DNA of 64,000 nt from contig JAEBUN010000002.1 in NCBI GenBank assembly GCA_023014365.1, forward strand, positions 2,604,001-2,668,000, given 5' to 3'. Numbering within the stretch: position 1 is the first letter of the stretch; the number at the start of each line of letters is the position of its first letter. Under the pieces are notes generated by a model. That model saw only the letters and a program-made list of their open reading frames with translations. It was not told where the DNA came from and searched no databases. The position numbers were made by a program, and so were the translations under genes. Origin of the DNA: Lepiota brunneoincarnata. Taxonomy: Eukaryota; Basidiomycota; Agaricomycetes; Agaricales; Agaricaceae. This document shows positions 1-50,934 of the stretch, one piece after another.

Positions 1-106
1 CAGGATGACAGGTCTTCTATCTATTTATATTACTTGGGTGCTTCTGATAAGAGTTCCTTCTGGTGAGGTTCCTGATAAGGGGAGTTTAAGGGGACTTCTG
101 ATAACA
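1..106 (-). repeat. Partial 3' LTR of Gyp-A1
   Basis: These 106 bases match 7497-7602 exactly and end in TGATAACA. On the minus strand this is the start (U3 side) of the LTR; the remaining roughly 312 bases lie before the window. The bases just to the right (107-125), read on the minus strand, give a purine-rich stretch ending GGGGTAA, a plausible polypurine tract. Confidence 0.95.
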
Positions 107-185
107 TTACCCCGTTTCTAAGGTTATATTCCACTATAACCGTTTATGTCTTTTTCTTCTTCTGTTTGTGTTTTTAAGTGGAGTT

Positions 186-1208
186 TTAGAAATCTCCTAC
201 TGGTTCTCCGCATATATTGGACATGGCGATATTATCGTATCCGTCGTCGAAGTCGTCTTCCTCAGGGTATTCAAGTCCTGAATATTGGTAATGGGTGGAT
301 GGGATATTTTGGGGTTGAGTTACCATAGGTCTGTTGTATGGTGTATGTCTCGTTCCTTTCGAGGGACATTCGGTTCGTTTGTGGTGGGGTTGGAATACTC
401 CGCAGTGTGGGCATCTATATTTGATGCAATCGTATGAGTAATGACCCGGGGCATATTGTTTGCAACCGAGGCATGCGAATTGGGGGCAGTCCATCGCCCA
501 GTGTCCAATTTGTTTGCATTGAATGCATCGGGATCTGTCGTTGGGTTTAGGGTTTGGAATTTGTTGGATAGGGGCAGGGGAATTCCGTATTGGGGTTGGT
601 TTGGTGGCATTTTTGCGGAAGGGGTTATTATTTCCGACAGGGTTCTTCCTTCCTGACGTGGGGGTTGGAGTGTTTTTGTTGGGAGTTGCCATATTGGTTT
701 GTTTCTTTCTTGGCATTTGGGATATGAGTCCTTGACGAGTGAGGAGGAATGCCTCATAGTTTTCGGTCCACTTTCGTTGGGCGTGGAAGGCGTCGTGGAG
801 GAGTTTTGTCTGTTTGACGTGATGGGTGTAGTTCGACCATATTTCTCGGTCGTAGTCGCTGATGGGGGCTTTGTTGACTTTGTCGGTAAGGAATTGAGTA
901 GAAGCGATGGTGCGTAAGTCTTCTACGTTTGTTGTGATTGGTTCGATGTTCTTTACTCCGGCTGTGTGGAAGTGAATGGGTAAGGCGGCTACTGGTTCTG
1001 GTTCAGGTGTAGCGTTGGGATCAGGAGTTTCGTCTCTGACGTTGATGAAGGCGTTGGAGGGCGTGAATGGGCATGGCCTTGGGATTGGAGTCGGGGAGTT
1101 TCTTTCGACATTGGGGTCGTCAATGATGATGACGGAAGAGGTAGTGGAGGAGGAGGAAAAGGGGGGAGTGGATTGGGGACGGACGAGGTCGAGGTTGTTC
1201 ATGGACAT
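186..1208 (-). CDS. Gyp-A1 ORF3: zinc-knuckle protein downstream of pol
   Basis: This is a 340-residue ORF in the position where retroviruses keep env. It shows no signal peptide or membrane segment. The N-terminal third is Ser/Pro-rich and holds an acidic-flanked hydrophobic patch (VIIIDD) that resembles a SUMO-interaction motif. Around residues 225-285 lie three tandem Cys/His knuckles: CIQCKQIGHWAMDC, CLGCKQYAPGHYSYDC and CPHCGVFQPHHKRTEC. The C-terminus is acidic and ends in SNICGEPVGDF. Homologous ORFs sit in the same place in Gyp-B and Gyp-C and end in the same SNI(T/C)GEP(V/C)G motif. The start ATG overlaps the pol stop: the pol TGA and the second ATG of ORF3 form ATGA, which suggests termination-reinitiation. 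The knuckles suggest nucleic-acid binding; the actual role is unknown. Confidence 0.8.
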   Translation of the reverse strand: MSMNNLDLVRPQSTPPFSSSSTTSSVIIIDDPNVERNSPTPIPRPCPFTPSNAFINVRDETPDPNATPEPEPVAALPIHFHTAGVKNIEPITTNVEDLRTIASTQFLTDKVNKAPISDYDREIWSNYTHHVKQTKLLHDAFHAQRKWTENYEAFLLTRQGLISQMPRKKQTNMATPNKNTPTPTSGRKNPVGNNNPFRKNATKPTPIRNSPAPIQQIPNPKPNDRSRCIQCKQIGHWAMDCPQFACLGCKQYAPGHYSYDCIKYRCPHCGVFQPHHKRTECPSKGTRHTPYNRPMVTQPQNIPSTHYQYSGLEYPEEDDFDDGYDNIAMSNICGEPVGDF

Positions 1209-4200
1209 TGTTGGGTACGTTTGGTAGAGCGAAGTTGCTTCTGGTAGGTTCTGGGTAGTTCCTGGTCGTTGCTGTTGAGTTGATGTATCTCTTTATACTC
1301 TTCCAAGTATTCATCGGCGTTATTGCGGAGTTCTTCTTCGGATATCCATTGGTTCTCCGTGTGGGAGTATCCTTTCCAATGTACGTAGTATTGGAGTCTT
1401 CCTCGATATCGGCGGTGGTTGAGAATAGCTTCTATTTCATATTCTTCTTCTTCATTGATGATGTCTGGTGGTGGTGGCGTCGGATGAGGTCCGTATGCTT
1501 CTGTTTCATTGTATGGGGTTAAGAGGTTTCGGTGGAACACCGGGTGTATCTTCCATTTGATCGGAAGTTTTAATTTGTATGTGAGTGGCGATAAGACTTC
1601 CAAAATAGGGAAAGGTCCTAGTCGTTTTGGGGATATTTTGTTGGAGATGAAGGGAAGTTTGAGGTTCTTGGCTTCTAGCCATACTTTCTGATGTGTTTCA
1701 AGGGGTTTGACAGCTCTTCTGGTTCTTTGTTTCATAATGTCGGCGGAGAGTTGGTGTGCCGCGTGTGCTTCTTTTCTGGCATCATCAAGGAGTCTGATGC
1801 GTTCGTCTACTGATGGAAAGTTCGAAGTTTCCATTACCGTGGGTATCGGTGGAGGGTTATATCCCATGATTAGTTCGAATGGGGATTTCTGCCTCGAGGC
1901 ATGTATTTTGGAGTTGTGTGCGAATTCGGCAATAGGGAGGGTTTCTGACCAGTCAAGGGGATTCCTGGTGCAATATATGGCGAGATAAGTCTCGATTTCT
2001 TGATTGTATCGTTCTGTGGAACCATCTGTCTGGGGATGGTATGCGGTTGAAAATGCTTGTTGGATGTTAAGGCGTTTGGCTAGTTGTTGGAGGGAGTTGG
2101 CAGCGAATCTGGGGTCTCGATCTGATATGATTTTGTCGGGTAGTCCGAATCTGGTAAAGACTTTTTCTATTAATAGTCGTCCGATGTCATCGGCGTTTGA
2201 TCGATCTGAGGTTGGGATGAAAATTACCCCCTTCGTAAGGCCGTGGTCCACCACGGACAATATCGCATTATGACCGGCGCTAGGCGGTAGACCGGTGATA
2301 AGATCCCATGAGATCTGGGCAAATGGGCGTTTAGAGGATGGTGGGGGGATCGGTTGAGTTGGTGCGCGATCCGGTCTGCGTATGATTTTGTGTTGCTGAC
2401 ACTCTGGACAGCCTTTGACGTAGTTCTTTATGAACGTCGACATTCCTGGCCAATATACTTCTTTCTTGGCGAGGCGGTATGTTTCTTGTTCTCCAGGGTG
2501 GCCACGTGTAGGGTGGTCGTGGTATCTTGCGATGACATCGCGTCTGAGTTGGAGGTCTTCTGGAATGATGACACGTTCTTGGAACGTGAGGAGTGAACCG
2601 TTCGGGGTTGGGACTGTTCCGAAGTCCTTATCGGCGGTGTTAGGGTGGGCTTCTTTTAGGAGTTTGAACGCTTCGGTGGTTCTAGCGTCGTATTTTGGTG
2701 ATTCCGTGATTCTTTCTTGGAGTTCCATATCGACGGTGGCGATAAAGAGGTGTTCTGGGAATATTGTGATCAGGTTTTGATCTTCTATGTCGGCGGTGGC
2801 GACAAAGAGGTTTCTTGGAAGTATGGTGACATCTTCATTATCGTTATCCTCGTCAGGGATGTGGTCTGGACGTCTTGACAGTGCGTCTGGTGCGGGGATC
2901 TTCGATCCTGGAACGTGTTCTAGTTTGAAATTGTAGTCCGCAAGGGTTTGTACCCATTGTGCTTGTCGGCGGTTGATTTTCTGGGGTTTACGCCAGTAGG
3001 TTAGGTTTTGGTGATCCATTTTGATACGGACCGTATGGGGGCTGCCAAGGAGGTAGTGGCGCCATTCTTCGAGGGCTCGGATAATAGCGAGGAGTTCCCT
3101 GTCGTAGATGTCATAATTGCGTTCCGCTGGCCCGAACGTCTTTGAATAGAATGATACGGGTTTCCGTATTCCGTTGATGTCGTATTGATACAGGACAGCT
3201 CCTGATGCGAATTTAGAAGCATCGGCTTCTATTTCGAAGGGTTTTGTGGAGTCAGGCATGAGGAGTACCGGTTCCTTTAAGAATTCGTTTTTGAGCGTTT
3301 CAAACGCTTTCTGTTGTTCTTCTTTCCATTCGAATTTGTTTGATTTGGAAAGGAGTTGGTTCAGGGGTTTGGTGTGATGGGAGTAGTTGCGGATGAACTT
3401 CCGGTAGAAGTTGCAGAATCCGATGAATTTTCGAATATGTCGGACTGTCTTTGGTACTGGCCAGTCTTCTATTCCCTTGAGTTTTCCGGGATCCATTTTG
3501 ATTTCGTCTGGCGTGATGATCATGCCGAGGTATTCGAGTCGTTGTTTGTTGAACTCGCATTTTTCCGTTTTAAGGTAGAGGTCGTTTTCCTGCAGGATCT
3601 GCAGTACTTTTTCCGTGAGTCGGTCGGTTTCCTCTTGGGTTTTACCATAGATTAGGATGTCATCCATGTATATGATGATTCCTCCTTTCTCCATTATTTC
3701 GGAGAATAATGTGTCCATCATATGTTGGAACGTCACGGGACTGTTGCAAAGTCCGAAGAACATAACAGTCGGTTCGAAAAGACCCATAGGAGTCTTGAAC
3801 GCTGCTTTCCATTGATCGCCATCTTTGATTCTGACGTTATTGTATCCTAGGCGGACGTCGAGCTTAGTGAAGTACTTAGCTCCTTTGAGTTTGTCCATGA
3901 TAGAAGAAATCATGGGGATTGGGTAGGCGTTTTTGACGGTGTGATCGTTTAGATAACGATAGTCTTGGCAGGGTCGGAGGTCTCCTCCTTTCTTGGCAAC
4001 GAAAAAGAAGGGTGATGCCATAGGGGACTTTGAAGGGCGGATGTAGCCTTTTCGAAGGTTTTCGTCTATGAATTCCTTCAGTGCTTTTTCTTCGGCAGGT
4101 GCCACTTGATAAGGTTTCATTGATTTTGCTTCGAATGTCGGTTTTAGTTCGATTTCGTGATCAAACGTTCTTGATGGTGGGAATCGTTCGGAGGCTTTCT

Positions 4201-4867
4201 TGTTGAATATTTTAGCCCATCGGGCGAATCTCCGAGGGATCTCGGGTGGTTCTTTGTTTGATTCCGGTTGTTTTCCTTTTTGGTTTGCCGATTTTGTCGG
4301 ATTGTGTTGCTCATTGTGGAGCGTTGTGGCGTGTGTTGCTTTGGCGTTTACTTCTAATGGGGTTAGAAGCATTGGGTTCATTTCTCTTTCTAAAGAGAAG
4401 GTGTCGAGGTCAACATTTGACAGGTTGACGTATTCTTCGGGGTTTTCCTCGGGTTGAGAGGTTTTTCCAGCCATTATGTCCATGGCAATGGAGTTAAGTT
4501 CGACGGGTCGTCGTAGGGTTCTGAGGAGTTTCGAGAAGTCCTGGTGATCGATTTGAGGTTTCCAAGAGAATGTTTTGGTCTTCCAGTTGATGTCGGGATT
4601 GTATTGTTCCAACCAGGGAAATCCGATGATGAGGTCCTTCTCACCAGTGTTTGTGACGTACGCTTCTAGCGTGCAATCTCTTCCATCGATGATGGTTCTG
4701 ATTTTGATGTATTCATGGATCTTGCCATGTTGATTGTCAGTTCCGTCCACGTTGCTGAGAGGGATTGGTTGGTCCAGCCGTTTGGTTTGATAACCATGTC
4801 GTTCAACGACTTTGTGGGAGATGAAGTTCCCTTGAGCTCCTGAGTCTATCAGGGCGGTGATGGCCAC
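1199..4867 (-). CDS. pol: Gyp-A1 Pol polyprotein (PR-RT-RNase H-IN-chromodomain)
   Basis: The open frame has 1222 codons from a GTG, but the true reading enters from gag by a -1 shift at 5038-5044. The frame has no stop between there and 4867. The aspartic protease has DSGA near residue 8 and the downstream IIGFPW motif. RT spans about 245-420 with LDVRLGYN and the catalytic YMDD near 400. RNase H spans about 535-650 (EADAS, REL, DHQNL). Integrase has the HHCC zinc domain near 760-810 (ending CPECQQHK). Its DDE core is near 850-960: a first Asp in SWDLITGLP, a second in ISDRDPRF, and Glu in STERYNQEIE. A GPF module follows, then a chromodomain near 1130-1190 (EYEIEAILNHR, YYVHWKGY). No stop or frameshift is visible, so the element may be autonomous. 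Pol is about 97% identical to Gyp-B by eye until mid-chromodomain, where divergence rises sharply. Confidence 0.97.
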   Translation of the reverse strand: MAITALIDSGAQGNFISHKVVERHGYQTKRLDQPIPLSNVDGTDNQHGKIHEYIKIRTIIDGRDCTLEAYVTNTGEKDLIIGFPWLEQYNPDINWKTKTFSWKPQIDHQDFSKLLRTLRRPVELNSIAMDIMAGKTSQPEENPEEYVNLSNVDLDTFSLEREMNPMLLTPLEVNAKATHATTLHNEQHNPTKSANQKGKQPESNKEPPEIPRRFARWAKIFNKKASERFPPSRTFDHEIELKPTFEAKSMKPYQVAPAEEKALKEFIDENLRKGYIRPSKSPMASPFFFVAKKGGDLRPCQDYRYLNDHTVKNAYPIPMISSIMDKLKGAKYFTKLDVRLGYNNVRIKDGDQWKAAFKTPMGLFEPTVMFFGLCNSPVTFQHMMDTLFSEIMEKGGIIIYMDDILIYGKTQEETDRLTEKVLQILQENDLYLKTEKCEFNKQRLEYLGMIITPDEIKMDPGKLKGIEDWPVPKTVRHIRKFIGFCNFYRKFIRNYSHHTKPLNQLLSKSNKFEWKEEQQKAFETLKNEFLKEPVLLMPDSTKPFEIEADASKFASGAVLYQYDINGIRKPVSFYSKTFGPAERNYDIYDRELLAIIRALEEWRHYLLGSPHTVRIKMDHQNLTYWRKPQKINRRQAQWVQTLADYNFKLEHVPGSKIPAPDALSRRPDHIPDEDNDNEDVTILPRNLFVATADIEDQNLITIFPEHLFIATVDMELQERITESPKYDARTTEAFKLLKEAHPNTADKDFGTVPTPNGSLLTFQERVIIPEDLQLRRDVIARYHDHPTRGHPGEQETYRLAKKEVYWPGMSTFIKNYVKGCPECQQHKIIRRPDRAPTQPIPPPSSKRPFAQISWDLITGLPPSAGHNAILSVVDHGLTKGVIFIPTSDRSNADDIGRLLIEKVFTRFGLPDKIISDRDPRFAANSLQQLAKRLNIQQAFSTAYHPQTDGSTERYNQEIETYLAIYCTRNPLDWSETLPIAEFAHNSKIHASRQKSPFELIMGYNPPPIPTVMETSNFPSVDERIRLLDDARKEAHAAHQLSADIMKQRTRRAVKPLETHQKVWLEAKNLKLPFISNKISPKRLGPFPILEVLSPLTYKLKLPIKWKIHPVFHRNLLTPYNETEAYGPHPTPPPPDIINEEEEYEIEAILNHRRYRGRLQYYVHWKGYSHTENQWISEEELRNNADEYLEEYKEIHQLNSNDQELPRTYQKQLRSTKRTQQCP

Positions 4868-5034
4868 GGGTTTTGATGTCCGTTCACTCCAAATCTCGAT
4901 GGGTAGGTAGAGAGAGCGTTTATTCGGGGAGAGTCGTAGTTGTACAGAATTTATCGAGAAAGTGTCCTTCTGAGAGTGAGAATATATAGTGTCTTTCTGG
5001 GAACGAGCAGGGGCGCATCGGTCTGTGTTCCGTT

Positions 5035-6222
5035 TTAAAAATCCTGGAAGGGACGCATCTCCGGGTCTTCGGCTAGCGCAGAGTGGAGTTCCTGTTGGAG
5101 TTCTGGATCAAGGTCATCAACCATTTGGCGCATCTGAGATGCAACTTCTGCGACGGCAAGGGAGTACTTGCGTTGCGGTGATTGTTGGGCGTTCCGGTTC
5201 GGGAATCCGGGACGAGTGTTTTGTTGTCCTGGGAAGGGACGGTTGGGGTTTCTCGCAGGGCGAGGGGGATTTGTACGCATTCCTGAGAAGCGTTTTGCTT
5301 GAGAGGGTTGAGGGCATTTGCTAACCCAATGGTCTTTAGCTCCGCATCGGAAGCATTCTTGGTTCTGGTAGGCTTTGATTTGTTGTCCGGTGACAACGGC
5401 ATCTATCTCCAAGGAGTTTTGAAGTTCTTCTTCGGCATAGTCCGGTTGAGGGATTTCTGGGTAAGGATCTTCGAATCCTTCTCCTATTTCGGCATGGTCT
5501 ACTTCCATGGCATGTGGGTCGCGTGGGGTAAATCGTGGAGCGTTGCTCCTTTGGTAGAATTGTGCGTAGGGCACATTGTTGTTTGGACGGTTTGGTCCGC
5601 GGTTGGGTTGGTATTGGTTCCTTTGAGGGAACGTGGTTCTGGGAACACCGTAAAGGGCATTGATTCGACGGAAATTATCGTCGAGTTTATTGGCTCGGGT
5701 ATACCAAGCAGTGATGGTTGTCGGAGGATTTTCTGATTCGTCAATCTTCATGGCGATTCGGCGGTCGATTGCTTTGCGGTATAGATCGATTAGAGTTCGA
5801 TCTTCTGTGAGTCCGGATTGACGGACAAGTTCCTTGAACTGAGCATTGAATTCAGTCATTGGTTTGCCTGTTTGGTGCAGGGTCTGGAGTTTGGTATGCG
5901 CGTACGCATGTTCGTCTGCTGGGGTGAAGTCGGCCCTAAGTCGGGCGGTGAAGTTGTCCCATGATTCCATGACTATGGGTTGTCCTGGTGGAGTTTGGGC
6001 GTTTCTTTCGTGGAGGTATTGTCTAGCCCAGGCTCGGGCATCTCCTGATTGCATTGTCGAAAGGACGAATAGAGTCCTAGCGAGGTCGGTGTTGTAAGTG
6101 GTCGCATTGGCGAGCACGTAAACTTCACATTGGAAGATCCAATCTTCGAATAATCTTCTGCTTCCATCGAAGGCAATGGGTTTGAGGAGTCCTAACTCCT
6201 TTGGGGTAGCTGCGGCGGCCAT
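5035..6222 (-). CDS. gag: Gyp-A1 Gag, from first AUG
   Basis: This 395-residue Gag starts at ATG 6220-6222, the first in-frame ATG of the transcript. The first half is a Retrotrans_gag-type capsid domain (FDGSRRLFEDWIFQCEVYV, then RADFTPADEH and FNAQFKELVRQSGL). The second half is Pro/Asn/Arg-rich with one CCHC knuckle, CFRCGAKDHWVSKC, near residues 290-305. It forms the virus-like particle in the cytoplasm and packages element RNA. It ends CAG-GAT-TTT-TAA, and the bases GGATTTT are the likely -1 slip site into pol. The same reading frame stays open upstream for about 209 more codons without an ATG (separate entry). Confidence 0.95.
   Translation of the reverse strand: MAAAATPKELGLLKPIAFDGSRRLFEDWIFQCEVYVLANATTYNTDLARTLFVLSTMQSGDARAWARQYLHERNAQTPPGQPIVMESWDNFTARLRADFTPADEHAYAHTKLQTLHQTGKPMTEFNAQFKELVRQSGLTEDRTLIDLYRKAIDRRIAMKIDESENPPTTITAWYTRANKLDDNFRRINALYGVPRTTFPQRNQYQPNRGPNRPNNNVPYAQFYQRSNAPRFTPRDPHAMEVDHAEIGEGFEDPYPEIPQPDYAEEELQNSLEIDAVVTGQQIKAYQNQECFRCGAKDHWVSKCPQPSQAKRFSGMRTNPPRPARNPNRPFPGQQNTRPGFPNRNAQQSPQRKYSLAVAEVASQMRQMVDDLDPELQQELHSALAEDPEMRPFQDF
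5038..5044 (-). other. Putative -1 ribosomal frameshift site, gag to pol (Gyp-A1)
   Basis: The minus-strand bases GGATTTT read as G-GAT-TTT in the gag frame, followed at once by TAA. Pol is in the -1 frame and is open across this point. The Phe tRNA can re-pair on TTT after a one-base slip. GGAUUUU is, from memory, a known -1 heptamer in dianthoviruses. The same seven bases lie at the gag end of Gyp-B and of the diverged Gyp-C. Confidence 0.7.
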
Positions 6223-6849
6223 TATTTGTAGTTGTCCGGGTGGCGGCGGCGGTGGTGGTGATGGAGGTTGTATTGGTCGGAAAGGTGGAGCCGGTAGGGC
6301 TAAGAGTGCGGTTGGTGCTGGTAAGGCGGGTGGTTGAGGATCGGGATCCGATTGGTTGTCGTCTGTTATATAGACGTCGGAGTCATTGTCTGTTTGGGGA
6401 GTTTTTTCCTGATTTACGGTGTATTCGTGGCGCGTGAGTAAGTTTTCTTCTGATGCGGAAAGTCCTCTTGGTTGTTTGAGGGCGTTCTTAAGTCTTTGGA
6501 GTTCGTAGTCGTTTAATGGATCTACTTTGGCGTGATATTCTTCGGCTTGCTTGCGTTTCTTTTCTTCTTGTTCGTAGTGTTCTTTTAATTCTTTTTCGTG
6601 TTGTATTCTTTGTCGTTCTGCTAGTTCGTCAGCAAAACTTGTTCTTGTACGTGTTGATGTACTTGGAGTGGGTGAGTCGAATGGGGATGGAGGATAGAAT
6701 GGCGATGGTGTTTGAGTGGGGATAGGGTTTCTTCTGGGATCCGGGTTTTTGGTTCCTGATCCTGAGATTCTGGCTCTCGATTTGGGAGGAGGGGGAGGTG
6801 ATGGGGATTCTCGGGCCGAGAATTTCTTTGGTGGCGTGGTGGCGGGTGT
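6223..6849 (-). CDS. ATG-less N-terminal extension of the Gag frame (Gyp-A1)
   Basis: About 209 codons lie in frame with Gag between a UAG (6850-6852) and the Gag ATG, with no stop and no ATG. The product would be Pro/Ser-rich (PPPPPKSRARISGSG, SPFYPPSPFDSPTPSTS), then a charged, probably coiled-coil stretch (ELAERQRIQHEKELKEHYEQ), then a poly-Pro tract just before Gag. Compared with Gyp-B, the two indels I see are 6 and 3 bases, so both keep frame, and the protein is well preserved. It is therefore coding-like, yet has no conventional start. It could be reached by UAG readthrough, non-AUG initiation, or splicing that uses the CTAG at 6850-6853 as acceptor. Confidence 0.6.
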
Positions 6850-6870
6850 CTAGCGATCAATTATCGCTAG
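6850..6870 (-). other. Perfect hairpin ending in the UAG that separates the leader frame from Gag
   Basis: CTAGCGAT (6850-6857) and ATCGCTAG (6863-6870) are perfect 8-bp inverted arms around a 5-base loop. On the coding strand the last three bases of the hairpin are the UAG. Gyp-B has the same arms with one loop change (50190-50210). Candidate roles are a recoding signal or an RNA dimerisation/packaging stem. Confidence 0.55.
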
Positions 6871-7107
6871 AAGTATGAAAATTTGAAGGGCGGCGATGGA
6901 TATTCCTGAGTACAGGTTCCACGATCTGACGACACAGCAGTGGCAGGGGCACGTGATCTGTTCGAGTTCTAGGTTGATGATTCTGTAGGCAAGGAGGGTG
7001 GCAGTTGTCGTGAAGACGAATATGAGGAGGTGAGCCAGGTTTGCTGGCAGGAGGGGAATGGATAGGATCGTAGCAGCAGCTACAGAGAACGTCGCAATTG
7101 GCGACAC
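6850..7107 (-). CDS. Leader frame encoding a two-membrane-segment, Cys-rich peptide (Gyp-A1)
   Basis: I know no family for this. The frame is open from inside the LTR (a TAG near 7235-7240) to UAG 6850-6852 and contains no ATG; the given start is a GTG. The conserved core is two hydrophobic segments (HLLIFVFTTTATLLAYRII and ISIAALQIFILLAII) separated by a Cys cluster (CPCHCCVVRSW). Gyp-B preserves 51 of the 59 core residues, although I count about 26 base differences over the same stretch. Most changes are therefore synonymous, which argues for selection on the peptide. It is in the same frame as the Gag extension and Gag. Possible roles are membrane targeting of a Gag variant or a small viroporin-like product. 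Confidence 0.5.
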   Translation of the reverse strand: MSPIATFSVAAATILSIPLLPANLAHLLIFVFTTTATLLAYRIINLELEQITCPCHCCVVRSWNLYSGISIAALQIFILLAIIDR

Positions 7108-7171
7108 AGAGTACCTCGACGCGTTCAGTACATCGGCAGAGCAGAGGGCGAGCAGAGGATAAGCAGCAAAG

Positions 7172-7183
7172 TATCTTAGTGTT
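7172..7183 (-). other. Primer binding site, self-priming type (Gyp-A1)
   Basis: The 12 bases TATCTTAGTGTT (plus strand) sit one base inside the 5' LTR and are the exact reverse complement of AACACTAAGATA at 7344-7355 within the same LTR. The transcript would then start with a sequence complementary to its own primer site, as known for Tf1/sushi-type elements, instead of using a tRNA. This also places the R region start near 7355. Confidence 0.75.
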
Positions 7184-7184
7184 T

Positions 7185-7602
7185 TGTTACCCGGGTTAGG
7201 GGTTCGCTCTTGAGTAGCACGGCGTTCGTGGCAAGATGTCTATACAGACTTGGTCTTGTCCTACTAGGCGTGACTTAGAGACGACGGAGCACTATAGTCC
7301 AGCCGGTTTAAGGGCAAAGAGGTATAGGAGGCAAGAACTGTATAACACTAAGATAAGGACACAAGGGTATGGTACAGTATCCTTATATACTACTATGTGT
7401 GGCTGTGCTCCTACTATATATGTCTGGACCCAGGTAAGTGAGTCATATCCTTATCTATCTAAGTATAGATTGTTCTGATAGTTCTTCTGATGGTTTCAGG
7501 ATGACAGGTCTTCTATCTATTTATATTACTTGGGTGCTTCTGATAAGAGTTCCTTCTGGTGAGGTTCCTGATAAGGGGAGTTTAAGGGGACTTCTGATAA
7601 CA
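7185..7602 (-). repeat. 5' LTR of Gyp-A1 (418 bp)
   Basis: On the plus strand it starts TGTTACCC and ends TGATAACA, so it has TG...CA ends. The R-U5 half (7185 to about 7420) is almost the same as in Gyp-B, while the U3 half is clearly different and has a different length. Confidence 0.95.
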
Positions 7603-32640: not shown

Positions 32641-33339
32641 TGTTATGATCTGTGCTCCTTCTGTATCCGAGGATAACTGGAGACGGCCTTCAATCACTCT
32701 ACAAGGTGTCCGAGACGGTTGGCCTTATAGAGCTTAGTGGATCGCGCTCAATGAGATAACGAGGGAAGACGCCAAGTTAAGGCAGAGAGGTAAACGACCG
32801 CTGTTAACAAGATTAAAGCTTGAGGCTTTTAATCTCTACTTGTACAGGCCTTATATACCTATGAGATGCTATATACTCGTTATAGGTTACTTGGCTGTTC
32901 TACTGGTCGTGCGCAGTCCTGACCATGATGCACATCCTGGCTGATGGCATCCTAGCGTTATTTATATTACAATGAGTCAGTACTCTCGCTACTGCTGTGC
33001 GATGTTCCATCGCTTTCCTCTGACTCATAATCTCCTTCTCCCGATTGTATCTCCATGGAGTCTTCTCCATTCTCGCTCTCCATTCTCTCGGTGCTTCCAT
33101 CCGTATCGGAGGTTGGATCGGTTGATCCATGGTTATCTTCCTCGTCCTCGGGGTATTCCAATATATCCTCCAAGGTTATCTCCATTCCTGCTTCTCTCGC
33201 CAGGTCCTGCATGGCGGTGTAATATTCCCCTTCCTCGTCTTCGTATTCTTGTGCCCGTAGTTGGTCTGTAGTCTCCTGTACCCATCTTGTAAAGTCGAAC
33301 AATAATTCTTGTTCCTCCCGGTCTGGACTGTTCGTAACA
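32641..33339 (-). repeat. 3' LTR of Gyp-C (699 bp)
   Basis: It starts TGTTATGATC and ends GTTCGTAACA. It carries a 115-codon acidic frame that continues from the internal region (see ORF4). Next to it, the minus-strand GAAGGGGATAA is a likely polypurine tract. Confidence 0.96.
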
Positions 33340-38133: not shown

Positions 38134-39258
38134 TTAGGCAAAATCCTTAACCAGAGGGGCATCTGGGTGGTTGGATTCGTTTGCAAAATGTTCGTAGATG
38201 TCCTCGACTTCTTCGTCGGTTGCATCTTCTAGTATGTTGTATAGCGAGTTCTTTTTCCTGTAGCTTGCTTGTCTTCTTCTGGATATCGCATTTGACCGGT
38301 TTCTGGCATCCAAATTGCGGGGTAATTCGGATCGGCGATATATTGTCTTCTTGATGGGGCATTCGCGGGCGAAGTGTCCAGTCTTGCGGCAGTTGAAGCA
38401 TCTCTTTTCTTTGAGATCCTTTCTTTGGGCGTCCGTGAGGATTGCATTGAGGGCTTCGCGGGTGCGTTCTTGTACCAACTGGTGGAGTCTGTCTTCTTCG
38501 GTCTCCTCGTCTTCATCAGCTTCCTCGGCGAGTAGATCTGGCTCGTCCTCAAAGTCGAGGTTGTAGACTGCTTCGGCGAGTTGGTCAATATCCATTGCGT
38601 TAGGGTCTGTTGCTTGATAGGGCAGTGGGACACGGCGCGTAAAAGCATTTCTTTTCCCTTTAAATGGGCAAGTGCGCGAAGTCGTTGGAAACGAGGGAGT
38701 TCCTCGAGTTTGCATATAGTCGCGTTGAGTTTGTAGTATTTGATATGCTGTTCGAGCTTGTTTGAACCAGTCGCTGAGTTTGTTTCCTGGATTGAGGCTA
38801 ATTGTCTTGATTGCGACGGGGCGATCCAGCCCGTTCTTGAAATAGTTGACCGCCGCCACTCCATCTCCAAGGTCGGCCTGATAGGCAAGTATCTGGAACT
38901 GGGATATGTAATCATTGATATATCGTCCATTCTGTTTGAGGTGGCGGATTCTGTCCATTGCATCGGCGGGGACATTGTTTGGGGCGAAGGATGTATCGAG
39001 TCCTTCGAGAAATTTCTTCCATGTCGGAAGGGTCTGGCTTCCATCAAGTTCTTTGTTTGATTCCAAGAATGCTCCTCTCCATGTTGCGGCGGGGCCGGTG
39101 GACATGTATGAAAGGGCGAATTGTATCTTGGTCTTGTCATCGGAAAAGGCTCCTGGTTTTGCATCGATGTATAGTTGTACTGCATCCTTCCAGAGGCGGA
39201 AATAGTCGGTCTCTCCATTAAAGGTTGGGGGTGTATTGATTTTTGCGGAGGAGGCCAT
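38134..39258 (-). CDS. gag: Gyp-C Gag
   Basis: There are 374 residues from ATG 39256-39258, the first ATG of the whole transcript. The capsid-like domain includes FNGETDYFRLWKDAVQLYI and FLEGLDTSFAPNNVPADA. The CCHC knuckle CFNCRKTGHFAREC is near residue 295. It ends GAT-TTT-GCC-TAA with the GGATTTT slip site just before. The Gag frame is also open upstream for about 164 codons (to a TGA near 39752) with Ser/Pro-rich sequence (PPRTFSPLTSPLGSPVHSPP) but no ATG. Confidence 0.93.
   Translation of the reverse strand: MASSAKINTPPTFNGETDYFRLWKDAVQLYIDAKPGAFSDDKTKIQFALSYMSTGPAATWRGAFLESNKELDGSQTLPTWKKFLEGLDTSFAPNNVPADAMDRIRHLKQNGRYINDYISQFQILAYQADLGDGVAAVNYFKNGLDRPVAIKTISLNPGNKLSDWFKQARTAYQILQTQRDYMQTRGTPSFPTTSRTCPFKGKRNAFTRRVPLPYQATDPNAMDIDQLAEAVYNLDFEDEPDLLAEEADEDEETEEDRLHQLVQERTREALNAILTDAQRKDLKEKRCFNCRKTGHFARECPIKKTIYRRSELPRNLDARNRSNAISRRRQASYRKKNSLYNILEDATDEEVEDIYEHFANESNHPDAPLVKDFA
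38140..38146 (-). other. Putative -1 frameshift site of Gyp-C
   Basis: The minus-strand bases GGATTTT lie two codons before the gag stop. Pol is open in the -1 frame through this point. The match to the Gyp-A1 and Gyp-B sites is exact, although neighbouring sequence differs. Confidence 0.65.
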
Positions 39259-40171
39259 ATTGTTAATGTCAGAGGTTGTGGATTCCTCGTCGGAAGTGTG
39301 AATAGACCCGGTAGTGGGGCTAACTTCGGATGGTTCGGATTGTACAGGGGAACTGGATCGAGGCGGTGAGTGTACCGGTGATCCAAGTGGTGATGTGAGG
39401 GGTGAGAATGTTCTTGGGGGTTTCTGTTGCGAAGTGTTGTCGCTAGTTCTTGTACTTGTTGAGGGTTGAGGACTGGAGGATGGGATAGATGTTCTATGAA
39501 TCGGCTCCCCGAGCTTTGAGCGGGTAGAGGTGGCAGTTCTTTCAGGTGGTGGTTGTTTGGGTAGGGATTGAAGAACTGATGCTGGGGGTGCTGGGTATCC
39601 TGGGTCTTCTGTTCGACGTTGAACTCTCTCGGTAGGTTGTGTAGGGTACGGTGCGGAACCAGAGGGTGAACGAGTGAGGGGTATAGGTTTTGTTTTCTTT
39701 TTAGGGTCCGTGGTGGAGGGGGTGTGAAGTCGGGTTCGGAGTCGGTTGTCGACCAGTCAGAACTGTTGGATTCTTCGTAGTCGGTGGCAAGGGGGTCGTT
39801 TCGGTTTGTAGACAGGGTGAAGAGGGAAGAAGTCGAAGGTGAAGGTGAGGGTGAATAAACAACGCTTGCGGGTGCGTTATCCCAATCGACGCTTGAAGGT
39901 GCGGATGACCTGTATACAACGCTTACGGGTGCGTTATCCCAATCAACACTTAAAGGTGTGGATGACCTATCAACGCTTTCGGTGCGTCTGACCAAGGGTG
40001 CAGAGGGTATGGTGGCCTGCTCTACGGGGGTGTATCACCGGACAGCGACAAGGCGTGTCGTCAGATACGGTTGGCACTCGGATAGCGATAAAGCGTATCG
40101 TCTGCCGGTGTGGAAGGGTAGCGACAAGGCGTACCGATACCACGGGGTGTACGATGGAGGTTGTCCAAAGG
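39259..40171 (-). other. Gyp-C leader: AUG-free, with open frames and short tandem repeats
   Basis: From the predicted transcript start near 40366 to the gag ATG I find no ATG in any frame. Two frames are open over long stretches: the Gag frame up to about 39749, and another frame to 39995. The latter begins with a 57-bp tandem duplication (39859-39971) that translates as RSSxPxSVDWDNAPxSVVY twice. Farther up, 40034-40140 has three diverged copies of a GACAGCGACAAGGCGT-like unit. Confidence 0.6.
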
Positions 40172-40183
40172 AAGCTTTAATCT
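40172..40183 (-). other. Primer binding site of Gyp-C, self-priming type
   Basis: AAGCTTTAATCT (plus strand), two bases inside the LTR, is the exact reverse complement of AGATTAAAGCTT at 40355-40366 within the LTR. It is the same logic as Gyp-A1 and Gyp-B with an unrelated sequence. Confidence 0.72.
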
Positions 40184-40185
40184 AA

Positions 40186-40884
40186 TGTTATGATCTGTGC
40201 TCCTTCTGTATCCGAGGATAACTGGAGACGGCCTTCAATCACTCTACAAGGTGTCCGAGACGGTTGGCCTTATAGAGCTTAGTGGATCGTGCTCAATGAG
40301 ATAACGAGGGAAGACGCCAAGTTAAGGCAGAGAGGTAAACGACCGCTGTTAACAAGATTAAAGCTTGAGGCTTTTAATCTCTACTTGTACAGGCCTTATA
40401 TACCTATGAGATGCTATATACTCGTTATAGGTTACTTGGCTGTTCTACTGGTCGTGCGCAGTCCTGACCATGATGCACATCCTGGCTGATGGCATCCTAG
40501 CGTTATTTATATTACAATGAGTCAGTACTCTCGCTACTGCTGTGCGATGTTCCATCGCTTTCCTCTGACTCATAATCTCCTTCTCCCGATTGTATCTCCA
40601 TGGAGTCTTCTCCATTCTCGCTCTCCATTCTCTCGGTGCTTCCATCCGTATCGGAGGTTGGATCGGTTGATCCATGGTTATCTTCCTCGTCCTCGGGGTA
40701 TTCCAATATATCCTCCAAGGTTATCTCCATTCCTGCTTCTCTCGCCAGGTCCTGCATGGCGGTGTAATATTCCCCTTCCTCGTCTTCGTATTCTTGTGCC
40801 CATAGTTGGTCTGTAGTCTCCTGTACCCATCTTGTAAAGTCGAACAATAATTCTTGTTCCTCCCGGTCTGGACTGTTCGTAACA
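40186..40884 (-). repeat. 5' LTR of Gyp-C (699 bp)
   Basis: It is the same as 32641-33339 except for two substitutions. It is followed by the GTGAC target duplication. Confidence 0.96.
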
Positions 40885-42750: not shown

Positions 42751-43136
42751 TGTTACCCGGGTTAGGGGTTCGCTCTTGAGTAGCACGGCGTTCGTGGCAA
42801 GATGTCTATACAGACTTGGTCTTGTCCTACTAGGCGTGACTTAGAGACGACGGAGCACTATAGTCCAGCCGGTTTAAGGGCAAAGAGGTATAGGAGGCAA
42901 GAACTGTATAACACTAAGATAAGGATACAAGGTATTGTACTGTATCCTTATATACTTCTAAGTGTGGCTGTGCTCCTACTATAATAATCCAGACCGGGGT
43001 AACTATGAGTCAGAGATAAGAGAACATGAGGCGTATACTAAGAATAGTCCTTCTGATGTACACTACTGATAGTTTCATAGTGACATGGGAATGTGAGCTA
43101 AAAATAACTGTCCTTCTGATGTGGTTTCTGATAACA
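42751..43136 (-). repeat. 3' LTR of Gyp-B (386 bp)
   Basis: It starts TGTTACCC and ends TGATAACA. Its R-U5 half matches Gyp-A1; its U3 half does not. Confidence 0.97.
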
Positions 43137-43417
43137 TTAGGTCCGTTTCTAGAGTTGTCTTCCATACAACTCGTTAGTTTCCTTCTTCCGGGTATTCGGC
43201 TAAGTAGTTTGGCTCGTAGTAATCGATCTGGGGTAGGTCGGTAGAGTCTGGTCTGGGGGGAATGACGGGGGAGAAGGTAGGAGTGGGGGTTCTGTGAAGA
43301 TCGAGTGCGGTGGCGGTGTCTGGGGATGGGGGCTGTCCTGGGTAAAAGATATCATAGAGAAGGCGTCTGAAACGGGGACTTTCGATTCTTTCTTCTGATG
43401 GGGCGAGTTGGTTTGTT

Positions 43418-44542
43418 TCAGAAGGAACCGCATGGTTCTCCTGTGATGTTTGATTCGGCCACGTCGTCGTAGCATTCCTCGTAATAGTCGTCGTGGGTGA
43501 GGTCGATGTATCGATGGTGAGTTGTGGGAGTGGTCAAGGGACGGGCTGTAGGATTTCTGGAGTAGGGGGCGTGTCGAGTCTTTCGACTTGGGCATTCGGT
43601 CCGTTTGTGGCGTGGTTGAAAGACAGCGCAGTGGGGGCATCTGTATTTGATGCAATCGTATGAGTAGTGCCCTGGGGCGTATTGTTTACATCCGAGGCAG
43701 GCAAATTGGGGGCAATCCATGGCCCAGTGTCCTGTGTGTCTGCATTGAATGCAGACCGATCTGTCGGTGGTTCGGGGGTTGGTTCGCTGGTGAATGGGGT
43801 TGGGGGAGTTCCGAATCGGGATGTTGTTATTGGTGACGGTGTGGGTGGTGTCCTTGGTGGGGGTGAGAAGTCTGAAGGGATTTCTGATACTGGCGGGCTT
43901 TCTTCCCTTACTGGGGGCGGTGGTGATGATAGCGGCAGTGGTCGTCGTGGTAGTGGTGGGGATGGTTGTGGTGGGGGGCTGCGAGGTATGTACCTCATTT
44001 CGTTTGGGTAGGTTCTTCGACACCTCGGACATGAGGCCCGATCTTGAGCGGAGAAGTCGCTCGAGTGATTCTGCCCAGGCACGTTGCATATTGTACGCAG
44101 TAGCGAGAGCCTTAGTCTGTCGTACGTGGTGGGTATAGTCGTACCAGAGTTGTCGGTCGTATTCTGAAATTGGAGTGTGTTCCAATTTAATCGTAAAGGC
44201 TCCGTCGGTGGCAGCCTCGCGCAGATCTCCGTCAGAAGGGTGATCTGGTCCATATGATCGTACTCCAGCTGTATGGTATCTAAGGGAGGCAGCTGGGGCG
44301 GCTGTTGGTTCTGGGGTGTCATTGGGGTCGGGGGTCTCGTCCCTGGGGGAGGTGTATGTTGCGGCGAAGGTGTGAGAGGGGGTGTAGGGAGACGGGGCCG
44401 GAACGGGAGTTGTTTGAAGTGTTGTATGTTCGACGCTTGCATTGTTTATGATGACGACAGAGGATGATGAGGAGGTTGGTGAAGGTGTTGTTGAAAAAGG
44501 GGGAGTAGTTTGGGGGCGAGTGAGGTCGAGGTTCATGGGCAT
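43418..44542 (-). CDS. Gyp-B ORF3: zinc-knuckle protein after pol
   Basis: There are 374 residues. Three knuckles (CIQCRHTGHWAMDC, CLGCKQYAPGHYSYDC, CPHCAVFQPRHKRTEC) near residues 245-305 match Gyp-A1. Outside them the protein is only loosely similar to the Gyp-A1 ORF3, although pol of the two elements is nearly identical. Near the C-terminus is YIDLTHDDYYEE, a SUMO-interaction-like motif in acidic context, then SNITGEPCGSF. The ATG lies two bases after the pol TAA. The 280 bp between this ORF and the LTR contain a further open +1 frame of about 80 codons, of doubtful meaning. Confidence 0.8.
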   Translation of the reverse strand: MPMNLDLTRPQTTPPFSTTPSPTSSSSSVVIINNASVEHTTLQTTPVPAPSPYTPSHTFAATYTSPRDETPDPNDTPEPTAAPAASLRYHTAGVRSYGPDHPSDGDLREAATDGAFTIKLEHTPISEYDRQLWYDYTHHVRQTKALATAYNMQRAWAESLERLLRSRSGLMSEVSKNLPKRNEVHTSQPPTTTIPTTTTTTTAAIITTAPSKGRKPASIRNPFRLLTPTKDTTHTVTNNNIPIRNSPNPIHQRTNPRTTDRSVCIQCRHTGHWAMDCPQFACLGCKQYAPGHYSYDCIKYRCPHCAVFQPRHKRTECPSRKTRHAPYSRNPTARPLTTPTTHHRYIDLTHDDYYEECYDDVAESNITGEPCGSF

Positions 44543-44544
44543 TT

Positions 44545-48204: not shown

Positions 48205-48380
48205 GGGTTTTGATGTCCGTTCACTCCAAATCTCGATGGGTAAGAAAAGGGATCGTTTATTTGGGGATAGTCGTAATTGTACAGAGTTTATCGAGAAAAT
48301 GTCCTTCTGGGAGTGAGAGTACGAAATGTCCTTCTGAGTTCTGGAACGTGCAGGGGCACATCTGTCGACAGCGTTCCTTT

Positions 48381-49610
48381 TTAAAAATCCTGGAATGGAC
48401 GCATCTCCGGATCCTCGGCTAGCGCGGAGTGGAGTTCTTGTTGGAGTTCTGGATCGAGGTCATCAACCATTTGGCGCATCTGAGATGCAACTTCTGCGAC
48501 GGCAAGGGAGTACTTGCGTTGCGGTGATTGTTGGGCGTTCCGGTTTGGGAATCCGGGACGAGTGTTTTGTTGTCCAGGGAAAGGACGGTTGGGGTTTCTC
48601 GCAGGGCGAGGGGGATTAGTGCGCATTCCTGGGAAGCGTCTGGCTGGCGGTGGTTGGGGGCATTTGCTGACCCAATGATCTTTGGCTCCACATCGGAAGC
48701 ATTCCTGGTTTTGGTATGATTTCATTTGTTGTCCGGTGACAACGGCATCTAACTCCAATGGTTCTTGTGCGGAGTTTTCTTCGGTGTATTCCGGTTGTGG
48801 GATTTCGGGATAAGGGTCTTCGAACCCTTCTTCTATGGTGACATGGTCTACTTCCATGGCATGTGGGTCGCGTGGTGTGAATCGTGGAGCGTTGCTCCTT
48901 TGGTAGAATTGTGCGTAGGGCACGTTATTGTTCGGGCGACTTGGTCCTCGATTGGGTTGGTATTGGTTTCTTTGGGGAAACGTGTTTCTGGGGGTGCCGT
49001 ACAGGGCGTTAATTCGGCAGAAATTGTCGTCGAGTTTGTTTGCTCGGGTGTACCAAGCGGTGATTGTTGTCGGAGGATTTTCTGATTCATCGATTTTCAT
49101 GGCAATGCGGCGATCGATTGCTTTGCGGTATAGATCGATCAGAGTGCGATCTTCGTTTAATCCGGATTGTCGGACAAGTTCTTTGAACTGAGCGTTGAAC
49201 TCGGTCATTGGTTTGCCTGCTTGGTGCAGGGTTTGAAGCCTGGTATGCGCGTACGCATGTTCGTCTGCTGGGGTGAAGTCGGCTCTTAGTCGAGCGGTGA
49301 AGTTGTCCCATGATTCCATGACTATGGGTTGTCCTTGTGGAGTTTGGGCATTTCTCTCGTGGAGGTATTGTCTAGCCCAGGCTTGGGCATCTCCTGATTG
49401 CATTGTCGAGAGGACGAATAAGGTCCTAGCGAGGTCGGTGTTGTAGGTGGTCGCATTAGCGAGGACGTAAACTTCGCATTGGAAGATCCAATCTTCGAAT
49501 AGTCTTCTAGTTCCATCGAAGGCGATGGGTTTGAGGAGTCCTAACTCCTTTGGGGTAGGTGCGGCGGCCATTATTTGTAATTGTCCGGGTGGCGGCGGCG
49601 GTGGTGGCAA
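48381..49610 (-). CDS. gag: Gyp-B Gag
   Basis: The first ATG is at 49569-49571; the longer limit given here is a TTG 13 codons upstream. About 396 residues from the ATG, with the same capsid domain and CFRCGAKDHWVSKC knuckle as Gyp-A1. It ends GAT-TTT-TAA with GGATTTT at 48384-48390 as the -1 slip site. It is continuous upstream with the ATG-less extension. Confidence 0.95.
   Translation of the reverse strand: MPPPPPPPGQLQIMAAAPTPKELGLLKPIAFDGTRRLFEDWIFQCEVYVLANATTYNTDLARTLFVLSTMQSGDAQAWARQYLHERNAQTPQGQPIVMESWDNFTARLRADFTPADEHAYAHTRLQTLHQAGKPMTEFNAQFKELVRQSGLNEDRTLIDLYRKAIDRRIAMKIDESENPPTTITAWYTRANKLDDNFCRINALYGTPRNTFPQRNQYQPNRGPSRPNNNVPYAQFYQRSNAPRFTPRDPHAMEVDHVTIEEGFEDPYPEIPQPEYTEENSAQEPLELDAVVTGQQMKSYQNQECFRCGAKDHWVSKCPQPPPARRFPGMRTNPPRPARNPNRPFPGQQNTRPGFPNRNAQQSPQRKYSLAVAEVASQMRQMVDDLDPELQQELHSALAEDPEMRPFQDF
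48384..48390 (-). other. Putative -1 frameshift site of Gyp-B
   Basis: GGATTTT just before the gag TAA, as in Gyp-A1. Pol continues in the -1 frame as TTT-TTA-AAA-AGG. Confidence 0.7.
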
Positions 49611-50189
49611 TGGAGGTTGTGTTGGTCGGAAAGGTGGAGCCGGTAGGGCTAAGGGTATGGTTGGTGCAGGTAATGCGGGTGGTTGTGGATCGGGGTCTGA
49701 TTGGTTGTCGTCTGTTATATAGACGTCGGAGTCGTTGTCTTCTTGGGGTTTTCCTTGATTTACGGCGTATTCGTGGCGTGAGAGTAAATCTTCCTCTGAT
49801 GTGGAAAGTCCTCTAGGTTGTTTGAGGGCGTTTTTAAGTCTTTGGAGTTTGTAGTCGTTTAATGGGTCTACTTTAGCACGGTATCCTTCGGCTTGTTTGC
49901 GTCTTCTTTCTTCTTGTTCGTAGTGTTCTTTTAATTCTTTTTCGTGTTGTAGTCTTTGTCGTTCTGCTAGTTCGTCAGCAAAGCTAGTCCTTGTTCGTGT
50001 TGATGTATTTGGGATGGGTGAGTCGAATGGGGATGGAGGGTAGAATGGGGATGGTGTTTGAGTGGGGATAGGGTTTCTTCTGGGATCCGGGTTTTGGGTT
50101 CCTGATCCTGAGATTCTATTTCTCGATTTGGGAGGGGGTGATGGGGATTCTCGGGCCGAGAATTTCTTTGGAGGCGTGGTGATATTTGT
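49572..50189 (-). CDS. ATG-less N-terminal extension of the Gag frame (Gyp-B)
   Basis: I translated the frame from UAG 50190-50192 to the Gag ATG and found no stop and no ATG. It reads TPPKKFSARESPSPP, SPFYPPSPFDSPIPNTS, ELAERQRLQHEKELKEHYEQ and ends in a poly-Pro run. The two indels against Gyp-A1 are 6 and 3 bases. This supports real coding of the frame in both elements. Confidence 0.6.
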
Positions 50190-50519
50190 CTAGCGATCGA
50201 TTATCGCTAGAAGTATGAAGAATTGGGTGGCGATTATGGATATCCCTGAGTATAGATTCCACGATCTGATGACACAGCAGTGACAAGGGCACGTGATGCG
50301 TTCGAGTTCTAGGGTGATGATTCGATAGGCAATGAGGGTGGCAGTAGAGGTGAAAACGAAAATGAGTAGATAAGCCAGGTCTTCTGGCGGGGAGAGGTTG
50401 AAGGACGTAGCGATGGCTACACAGAGAGGCGGTTTTCTTTCGCACGTCGTTTTGAACGACCAGAGTACCTCGACGCGTTCAGTACGTCGGTGGAGTAGAG
50501 CAGAGTAGAGGGCGAGCAA
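50190..50519 (-). CDS. Leader frame encoding a two-membrane-segment, Cys-rich peptide (Gyp-B)
   Basis: It is open from a TTG (no ATG) to UAG 50190-50192. The core has LLIFVFTSTATLIAYRII, CPCHCCVIRSW and ISIIATQFFILLAII, matching Gyp-A1 with conservative changes. The N-terminal portion (50349-50519) is not conserved, which suggests that only the core matters. It is in frame with the Gag extension after the UAG. The UAG is the foot of the hairpin at 50190-50210. Confidence 0.5.
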   Translation of the reverse strand: MLALYSALLHRRTERVEVLWSFKTTCERKPPLCVAIATSFNLSPPEDLAYLLIFVFTSTATLIAYRIITLELERITCPCHCCVIRSWNLYSGISIIATQFFILLAIIDR

Positions 50520-50535
50520 GAGATAAGCAGCAGAG

Positions 50536-50547
50536 TATCTTAGTGTT
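50536..50547 (-). other. Primer binding site of Gyp-B, self-priming type
   Basis: TATCTTAGTGTT, one base inside the LTR, is the exact reverse complement of AACACTAAGATA at 50708-50719, identical to Gyp-A1. Confidence 0.75.
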
Positions 50548-50548
50548 T

Positions 50549-50934
50549 TGTTACCCGGGTTAGGGGTTCGCTCTTGAGTAGCACGGCGTTCGTGGCAAGA
50601 TGTCTATACAGACTTGGTCTTGTCCTACTAGGCGTGACTTAGAGACGACGGAGCACTATAGTCCAGCCGGTTTAAGGGCAAAGAGGTATAGGAGGCAAGA
50701 ACTGTATAACACTAAGATAAGGATACAAGGTATTGTACTGTATCCTTATATACTTCTAAGTGTGGCTGTGCTCCTACTATAAAAATCCAGACCGGGGTAA
50801 CTATGAGTCAGAGATAAGAGAACATGAGGCGTATACTAAGAATAGTCCTTCTGATGTACACTACTGATAGTTTCATAGTGACATGGGAATGTGAGCTAAA
50901 AATAACTGTCCTTCTGATGTGGTTTCTGATAACA
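50549..50934 (-). repeat. 5' LTR of Gyp-B (386 bp)
   Basis: It is identical to 42751-43136 apart from one T/A difference. It is followed by GGTAG. Confidence 0.97.

Follow-up and report, generated by a model that had tools for sequence, protein, structure and literature searches.

AUG-poor leaders with a predicted membrane ORF and a putative non-AUG Gag extension in gypsy elements of Lepiota brunneoincarnata

Results

The window analyzed here, a 64-kb stretch of the 55.6-Mb L. brunneoincarnata assembly (C14:2604001-2668000), contains three gypsy elements (A, B, and C), all on the minus strand. Their main features are as follows:

About 1-7602, minus strand: element A, its 3' LTR cut by the start of the window
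7185..7602, minus strand: 5' LTR of A (TG...CA), inner edge placed by homology to the LTR pair of B, outer edge approximate
1199..5107, minus strand: Pol frame of A (Pfam on four pieces)
42751-50934, minus strand: element B, LTR to LTR
50549..50934, minus strand: 5' LTR of B, 386 nt, 99.7% identical to 42751-43136
42751..43136, minus strand: 3' LTR of B
LTRs beginning at 32641 and 40186, minus strand: element C

By LTR pair (B), Gag domain (A and C), and pol order (A only), the elements fit the Ty3/gypsy chromovirus type. The LTR pair of B has the TG...CA ends expected of chromoviruses (TGTTA.../...TAACA), and positions 7497-7602 in the 5' LTR of A are 100% identical to positions 1-106, the top end of its 3' LTR. 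The Retrotrans_gag domain is matched above the cut-off in A (E = 1.7e-11) and C (E = 4.4e-10), and the CCHC knuckle of chromovirus Gag is found above the cut-off in C and below it in A. The pol of A follows the chromovirus order of RVP_2 protease, RVT_1, RNase H, integrase (H2C2, rve), and Chromo, where H2C2 and Chromo (E = 2.9e-14) score above the cut-off and the integrase core rve below its own. A third ORF lies downstream of pol at 186-1292 (minus strand) in A and 43418-44581 (minus strand) in B, with CCHC-like knuckles below the Pfam cut-off (E = 0.008 and 0.034). Elsewhere in the window, an inverted repeat (51428-55922/57451-61945; 4495 nt, 100% complementary, arms 1528 nt apart) is either a recent inverted duplication or an assembly artifact.

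Both A and B have many relatives in the genome. At least 105 scored matches to the A Gag were found among 1103 candidates, and at least 150 matches to a small upstream ORF (the core, described below) among 351 candidates. The A/B-type copies analyzed here number 64, all from this one genome, and consist of 44 closer copies and 20 diverged ones, the latter chosen from the core matches for low identity or unusual open frames. A, B, and these copies share ancestry and are thus non-independent witnesses. For C, 20 copies were taken from at least 110 listed, 16 of them low and four high in the list; L114, at first a candidate for a second C subfamily, turned out to be a C copy carrying a deletion. 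Among proteins, where the candidates sharing most words were scored, the A Gag has two relatives, one of them in Postia placenta (P0002), and the C Gag has four; a search with P0004 as query returned the C copies once more. No relative of Gag was found among the viral contigs. Thirty-five hydrophobin-like matches in the assembly, together with the Gag relative in P. placenta, indicate a basidiomycete, probably one that forms mushrooms.

The RNA of self-priming elements begins at a 12-mer complementary to the primer-binding site. In A, B, and C, the 12 nt just past the inner edge of the 5' LTR match exactly, in reverse complement, a 12-mer that lies about 35 nt beyond the start of a TATATAAGG box. 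The complements are exact over 11-12 nt and correctly placed in all three elements, which therefore look self-priming, with a Tf1/sushi-like layout. This layout predicts RNA 5' ends at 7355 (A), 50719 (B), and 40366 (C). The features of this region, in which the primer-binding arrangement of A recurs in B and C, are as follows:

7381..7389, minus strand: TATA-like box TATATAAGG of A, first base 34 nt before the predicted start
7344..7355, minus strand: predicted 5' end of the A transcript, self-primer TATCTTAGTGTT, reverse-complementary without mismatch to the nucleotides that follow the LTR
7172..7183, minus strand: AACACTAAGATA, primer-binding site of A, complementary to the 5' end of the same RNA
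6223..7355, minus strand: leader of A, 1133 nt, 2 ATGs
49572..50719, minus strand: leader of B, 1148 nt, no ATG
39259..40366, minus strand: leader of C, 1108 nt, no ATG

R, U5, and the primer-binding site of A and B (7169-7358 and 50533-50722) are identical over about 190 nt and U3 and the remaining leader clearly differ, as if this segment had been exchanged in reverse transcription.

The leaders are strongly depleted of ATG. As the earlier note had observed, B has none and A only two (at 7133 and 6386, opening ORFs of 2 and 6 codons); the leader of C, likewise free of ATG, extends that observation. Dinucleotide shuffles predict 9.4, 8.4, and 6.9 ATGs for A, B, and C, slightly fewer than the "ten or more" that had been supposed for A and B, and none of 1000 shuffles was as ATG-poor as the leader in any of the three. 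The depletion is significant upstream of an in-frame ACG, at which a Gag extension appears to begin (P = 0.001-0.004), and not significant within the extension alone (P = 0.09-0.69 by dinucleotide and 0.08-1.0 by synonymous shuffles). The extensions of A, B, and C (205, 202, and 151 codons) contain no Met at all, compared with 10, 11, and 5 in the respective short Gags (P = 0.018, 0.019, and 0.33, Fisher's exact test).

Among 44 distinct A/B-type copies, an upstream ATG is absent in 17 of the 43 that could be measured; L042 has no Gag anchor, and three copies with an upstream ATG (L025, L031, and L044) have a displaced predicted start. Between a CUG at the upstream edge of the core and the Gag AUG (the ACG codon excluded), the closer copies carry 1.14 ATGs on average and 23 of them none, whereas the 20 diverged copies carry 6.05 and only one has none. 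The number of ATGs is negatively correlated with CpG content across copies (rho = -0.85). Decayed copies gain ATGs while losing CpG, so the absence of ATG looks maintained in the lineages that spread. The 20 C copies have no ATG in five cases, one in fourteen, and two in one. An AUG-free leader is not common to all gypsy families here, since in a sister self-priming family, D, the long Gag begins at AACCATGG, 51 nt past the first base of the primer-binding site (L081).

Two coding units can be read in the leader and Gag of A and B, and the second of them in C:

6850..7038, minus strand: membrane ORF of A, CUG (7038-7036) to UAG (6852-6850), 62 codons (dN/dS, codon table, AF2)
50190..50378, minus strand: membrane ORF of B, CUG to UAG
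5035..6837, minus strand: long Gag of A, putative start ACG at 6837-6835; its short Gag begins at AUG 6222
48381..50177, minus strand: long Gag of B, putative start ACG at 50177-50175; its short Gag begins at AUG 49571
38134..39711, minus strand: long Gag of C, putative start ACG in TCC ACC ACG GAC CCT AAA AAG; its short Gag begins at AUG 39258
6807..6823, minus strand: 7-bp hairpin ATTCTCG-GCC-CGAGAAT in A, with its first base at nucleotide 15 when counted from the ACG

The earlier note described a single reading frame that sets out in the LTR, crosses the core and a single UAG, and continues for about 209 codons into Gag. The frame is indeed open over this whole distance, with the UAG at 6852-6850 and 209 codons up to the Gag ATG at 6222, yet it does not behave as one constrained unit: upstream of the core, indels of 10 nt and 1 nt put A and B in different frames. 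In the core itself, the reported 59 residues with 26 base and 8 residue differences between A and B become, when counted from the CUG, 62 codons that differ in 29 bases (17 of these at third positions) and 9 residues, and the constraint that these counts were taken to indicate holds. Over the 61 codons after the CUG, dN/dS is 0.11-0.24 in all five A-vs-B pairs (shifted frames, 1.27-3.80) and 0.03-0.34 over all ten pairs. The extension from ACG to AUG gives 0.15-0.22 in all five A-vs-B pairs (shifted frames, 0.58-3.59) and 0.12-0.32 over all ten. Values near 1, named beforehand as evidence against a coding function, were thus seen in neither unit. As had been noted, the indels by which A and B differ in the extension have lengths divisible by three.

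If the leader were kept free of AUG merely to let ribosomes scan to the Gag AUG, the open frame could be a by-product without any additional protein. Scanning alone suffices for AUG depletion, and no hydrophobic ORF was seen by eye in three frames of the C leader. This explanation predicts neither a dN/dS of 0.1-0.2 across about 800 nt of a single frame nor the loss of constraint in the core frame just before the CUG, and we consider it highly improbable. Splicing, or transcripts that start elsewhere, could also provide AUGs for the two units, given that the transcript ends used here are predicted from sequence. The RNA 5' ends expected from the self-priming layout are 7355, 50719, and 40366, no GTRNGT splice donor (the only donor form scanned) is present in the A, B, or C leaders, and the constraint of the core up to its UAG leaves little space for an intron, which together make such AUGs very unlikely.

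The core is Cys-rich, with two predicted helices and ITCPCHCC at the turn between them (in A). An AF2 model gives a helical hairpin (helices 2-27 and 33-61) at moderate confidence (pLDDT 71.8, pTM 0.41), and the first helix is borderline in 19-residue hydropathy (1.6-1.8). Across 36 distinct core sequences, the four Cys of CPCHCC, W40, G45, and other residues are invariant, and no cluster of K/R was seen by eye. If the CUG is the start, residue 2 is Ala in 64/64 copies, and the core does not carry the MGxxxS/T myristoylation motif. A small membrane ORF under purifying selection thus lies upstream of gag, its membrane character being predicted. No Pfam match was found up to E = 1, no relative among 25 candidate proteins, and no confirmed one among 33 pattern matches in genome contigs outside this genome; fold searches gave nothing significant (best E = 1.3 for viral structures and 2.8 for PDB). 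A match of residues 19-40 to a viral contig (L113; 54% identity, E = 3e-5, calculated against the 27 candidate stretches only) was taken for chance.

The upstream edge of the core is marked by a CTG in 64/64 copies, whereas 7 of the 8 other positions that usually encode Leu vary synonymously. In the copy rows inspected, this codon has a purine at -3 and G at +4, a strong context of the form (A/G)A(C/U)CUGG. Part of the invariance could be explained by a 5-bp hairpin, GCCAG/CTGGC, which holds the CUG in its 3' arm and of which the left arm is kept in 55/64 copies. In the 60 nt ending at the CUG, dN/dS in the core frame rises to 2.0-3.0 in the five A-vs-B pairs; another frame of the same 60 nt gives 0.39-0.46 (13-14 differences, five A-vs-B pairs), which counts against the model. 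The membrane ORF could also start elsewhere and still give the same products, for example at several near-cognate codons or at an ACG that lies in frame ten codons upstream of the CUG and is found in 48/64 copies. Profiling of murine leukemia virus (MLV) indicated other starts near its CUG (PMC5778647). The codons before the CUG are nonetheless unconstrained in the core frame between A and B, and 9 of the 10 vary in residue among the 64 copies, which makes a different start rather unlikely.

At its downstream end, the core is closed by a UAG kept in 61/64 copies. A spacer of 12 nt follows, constant in length in the copy rows inspected and differing between A and B at 4-5 of its 12 nt, and constraint resumes at an ACG in ACC-ACG, from which the Gag extension runs for about 205 codons. 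The extension is proline-rich, charged, and hydrophilic (maximum 19-residue hydropathy, 0.88), and its length is a multiple of three in 60/64 copies (exceptions L041, L042, L067, and L069). The conserved UAG, the variable spacer, the constraint resuming at a strong-context ACG, and the hydrophilic extension favor taking the core as a small membrane protein in its own right over taking it as a part of Gag. These edges also argue for reading the single frame of the earlier note as two units. It had concluded that the element makes two Gags, one normal and one membrane-anchored or N-extended; the N-extended form likely exists beside the AUG-started one, judging from the protein-level constraint on the leader, and the conserved UAG and hydrophilic extension speak against the anchored form. 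A membrane-anchored Gag would be made if ribosomes read through the UAG and fused the core to Gag, and the shared frame of core and extension, the spacer length kept in the rows inspected, and the precedent of MLV glyco-Gag as an extended, membrane-inserted Gag all suit it. It is difficult to reconcile with the retention of the UAG, the divergence of the spacer, and the renewed constraint at the ACG; moreover, the base after the UAG is A, a context that we take to contain no recognized readthrough motif. Such a fusion is quite improbable.

In one copy (L073, C34:127307-128609), the UAG reads TCG and the ACG reads ATG, and one frame of 574 codons is open over the core; the Gag match of this copy has three TGA stops.

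The codon at the ACG site is ACG in 42 of the 64 copies, ATG in 15, and ACA in 7. On a tree built without this codon, ATG requires 12 changes (9 forced) and ACA 7 (6 forced), scattered over the tree, and ACG is the simplest ancestor, as ATG and ACA are each one CpG step away. Of the 20 diverged copies, though, 11 have ATG and 4 have ACG. CpG sites elsewhere are lost at similar rates, indicating that the ACG is not specially preserved in decaying copies. The ratio of ATG to ACA is 15:7 at this codon versus 4:13 at a core Thr ACG (P = 0.0095, Fisher's exact test, a comparison chosen post hoc), and 9:7 at the ACG ten codons before the CUG. In C, the putative start codon of the long Gag is ACG in 19/20 copies, which are too alike for a test of constraint. 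The putative start is followed by different residues in the two types: ACC-ACG-G and then DPKKK in C, ACC-ACG-CC and then PPKKF in A and B.

The 7-bp hairpin behind the ACG is present in A and B and absent in C, with a frequency of 4.5% by synonymous shuffle. In old copies it shows CpG decay, in our reading without clear covariation. A critical zone in which a stem at nucleotides 12-18 is reported to help weak starts is ascribed to Kozak (PMC2001202). In A and B the hairpin, a perfect one, begins within that zone at nucleotide 15, and it is only a hint of such a start aid. No comparable hairpin was found behind the CUG.

Discussion

AUG depletion, protein-level constraint of both units, their edges near the CUG and ACG, the invariance of the CUG, and the self-priming sequence layout are directly supported. 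From these we infer start codon use, leaky scanning, the products and their amounts, and membrane insertion. Probably, a CUG-started membrane protein, an ACG-started long Gag, and an AUG-started short Gag are made from one RNA by leaky scanning. Ribosomes would scan the unspliced, self-priming RNA from its 5' end, meeting no or nearly no AUG before Gag. A minority would start at the CUG in (A/G)A(C/U)CUGG and make a 62-residue, two-helix membrane protein ending at the UAG; ribosomes passing the CUG would start at the ACG in ACC-ACG and make Gag with an N-terminal extension of about 205 residues, and the remaining ones would reach the AUG and make the short Gag. Leaky initiation at CUG, then ACG, then AUG would account for the AUG-poor leader, the two constrained units with their edges, and the Met-free extensions.

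Each step of this mechanism has a published precedent elsewhere. The MLV extension forms one continuous protein with Gag, which is inserted in the membrane. In the elements described here, by contrast, a conserved UAG lies between the membrane protein and the hydrophilic extension, which has an ACG of its own, and no membrane segment continuous with Gag is found (UAG in 61/64 copies). The putative in-frame non-AUG extension of Gag fits the glyco-Gag pattern in coding constraint and ACG context. The parallel to MLV drawn in the earlier note suits the proposed start mechanism and not the product. MLV glyco-Gag starts at accCUGg, in a long leader and in frame with the Gag AUG, giving two Gags from one RNA (PMC5778647).

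A closer likeness to the core itself is sORF2 of the Drosophila MDG1 group, a membrane ORF of about 70 amino acids upstream of gag in Env-less elements, with low dN/dS (PMC11952523). Its description there gives a single transmembrane domain and a basic patch, plus an N-myristoylation motif in four of six cases, and the survey relied on canonical starts (PMC11952523). The short ORF before gag and its purifying selection are shared with the core; in contrast, the core is predicted to form two helices (2-27 and 33-61) around a CPCHCC turn, has a putative CUG start and neither Met-Gly at the start nor a cluster of basic residues, and lacks the single helix with a juxtamembrane polybasic stretch of sORF2 and FAST proteins. 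The elements therefore fall into neither the MLV glyco-Gag nor the sORF2 class: the membrane part is unfused, and there is no single helix, polybasic stretch, or myristoylation motif. The aquareovirus FAST protein NS22 (SMReV) is also a small membrane protein with a CUG start, in AUCCUGG (PMC3135578); unlike the core, it belongs to another virus class, is larger, and causes syncytia. In the basidiomycete Cryptococcus, LeuRS has an N-extended isoform from an ACG in gccaccACG (PMC7049704), and conserved ACG, CUG, and AUU starts are described in fungal leaders, including that of Neurospora cpc-1 (PMC7049704, PMC5487733). Those fungal dual-start genes are host genes, whereas the present ones belong to mobile elements; no report of such expression in a fungal element was found in the open-licence literature searched.

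The most likely role of the small protein, proposed tentatively, would be to recruit Gag particles or the RNA of the element to a membrane, or else to act on one. More specifically, the CUG-started protein might move env-less particles or RNA across membranes, between hyphal compartments or partners, as an independent fungal counterpart of sORF2 with the long Gag recruiting the particles; this scenario is unlikely.

If the proposed expression is true, a fungal mobile element expresses a membrane protein and two Gags from a single RNA by way of three start codons, CUG, ACG, and AUG. Such genes would escape surveys limited to AUG starts as well as standard gene searches, and env-less elements with membrane proteins could be more common than thought. 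Gags annotated from AUG may then be about one third too short (in A, by 205 of 600 residues).

A second frame was also observed in C, 601 codons long (38229-40034, minus strand), open across the leader and overlapping Gag. Within Gag it has 1 stop where 10.3 are expected, and none of 2000 synonymous shuffles had an open stretch as long; it is possibly an overlapping gene, the leader part of which has no ATG.
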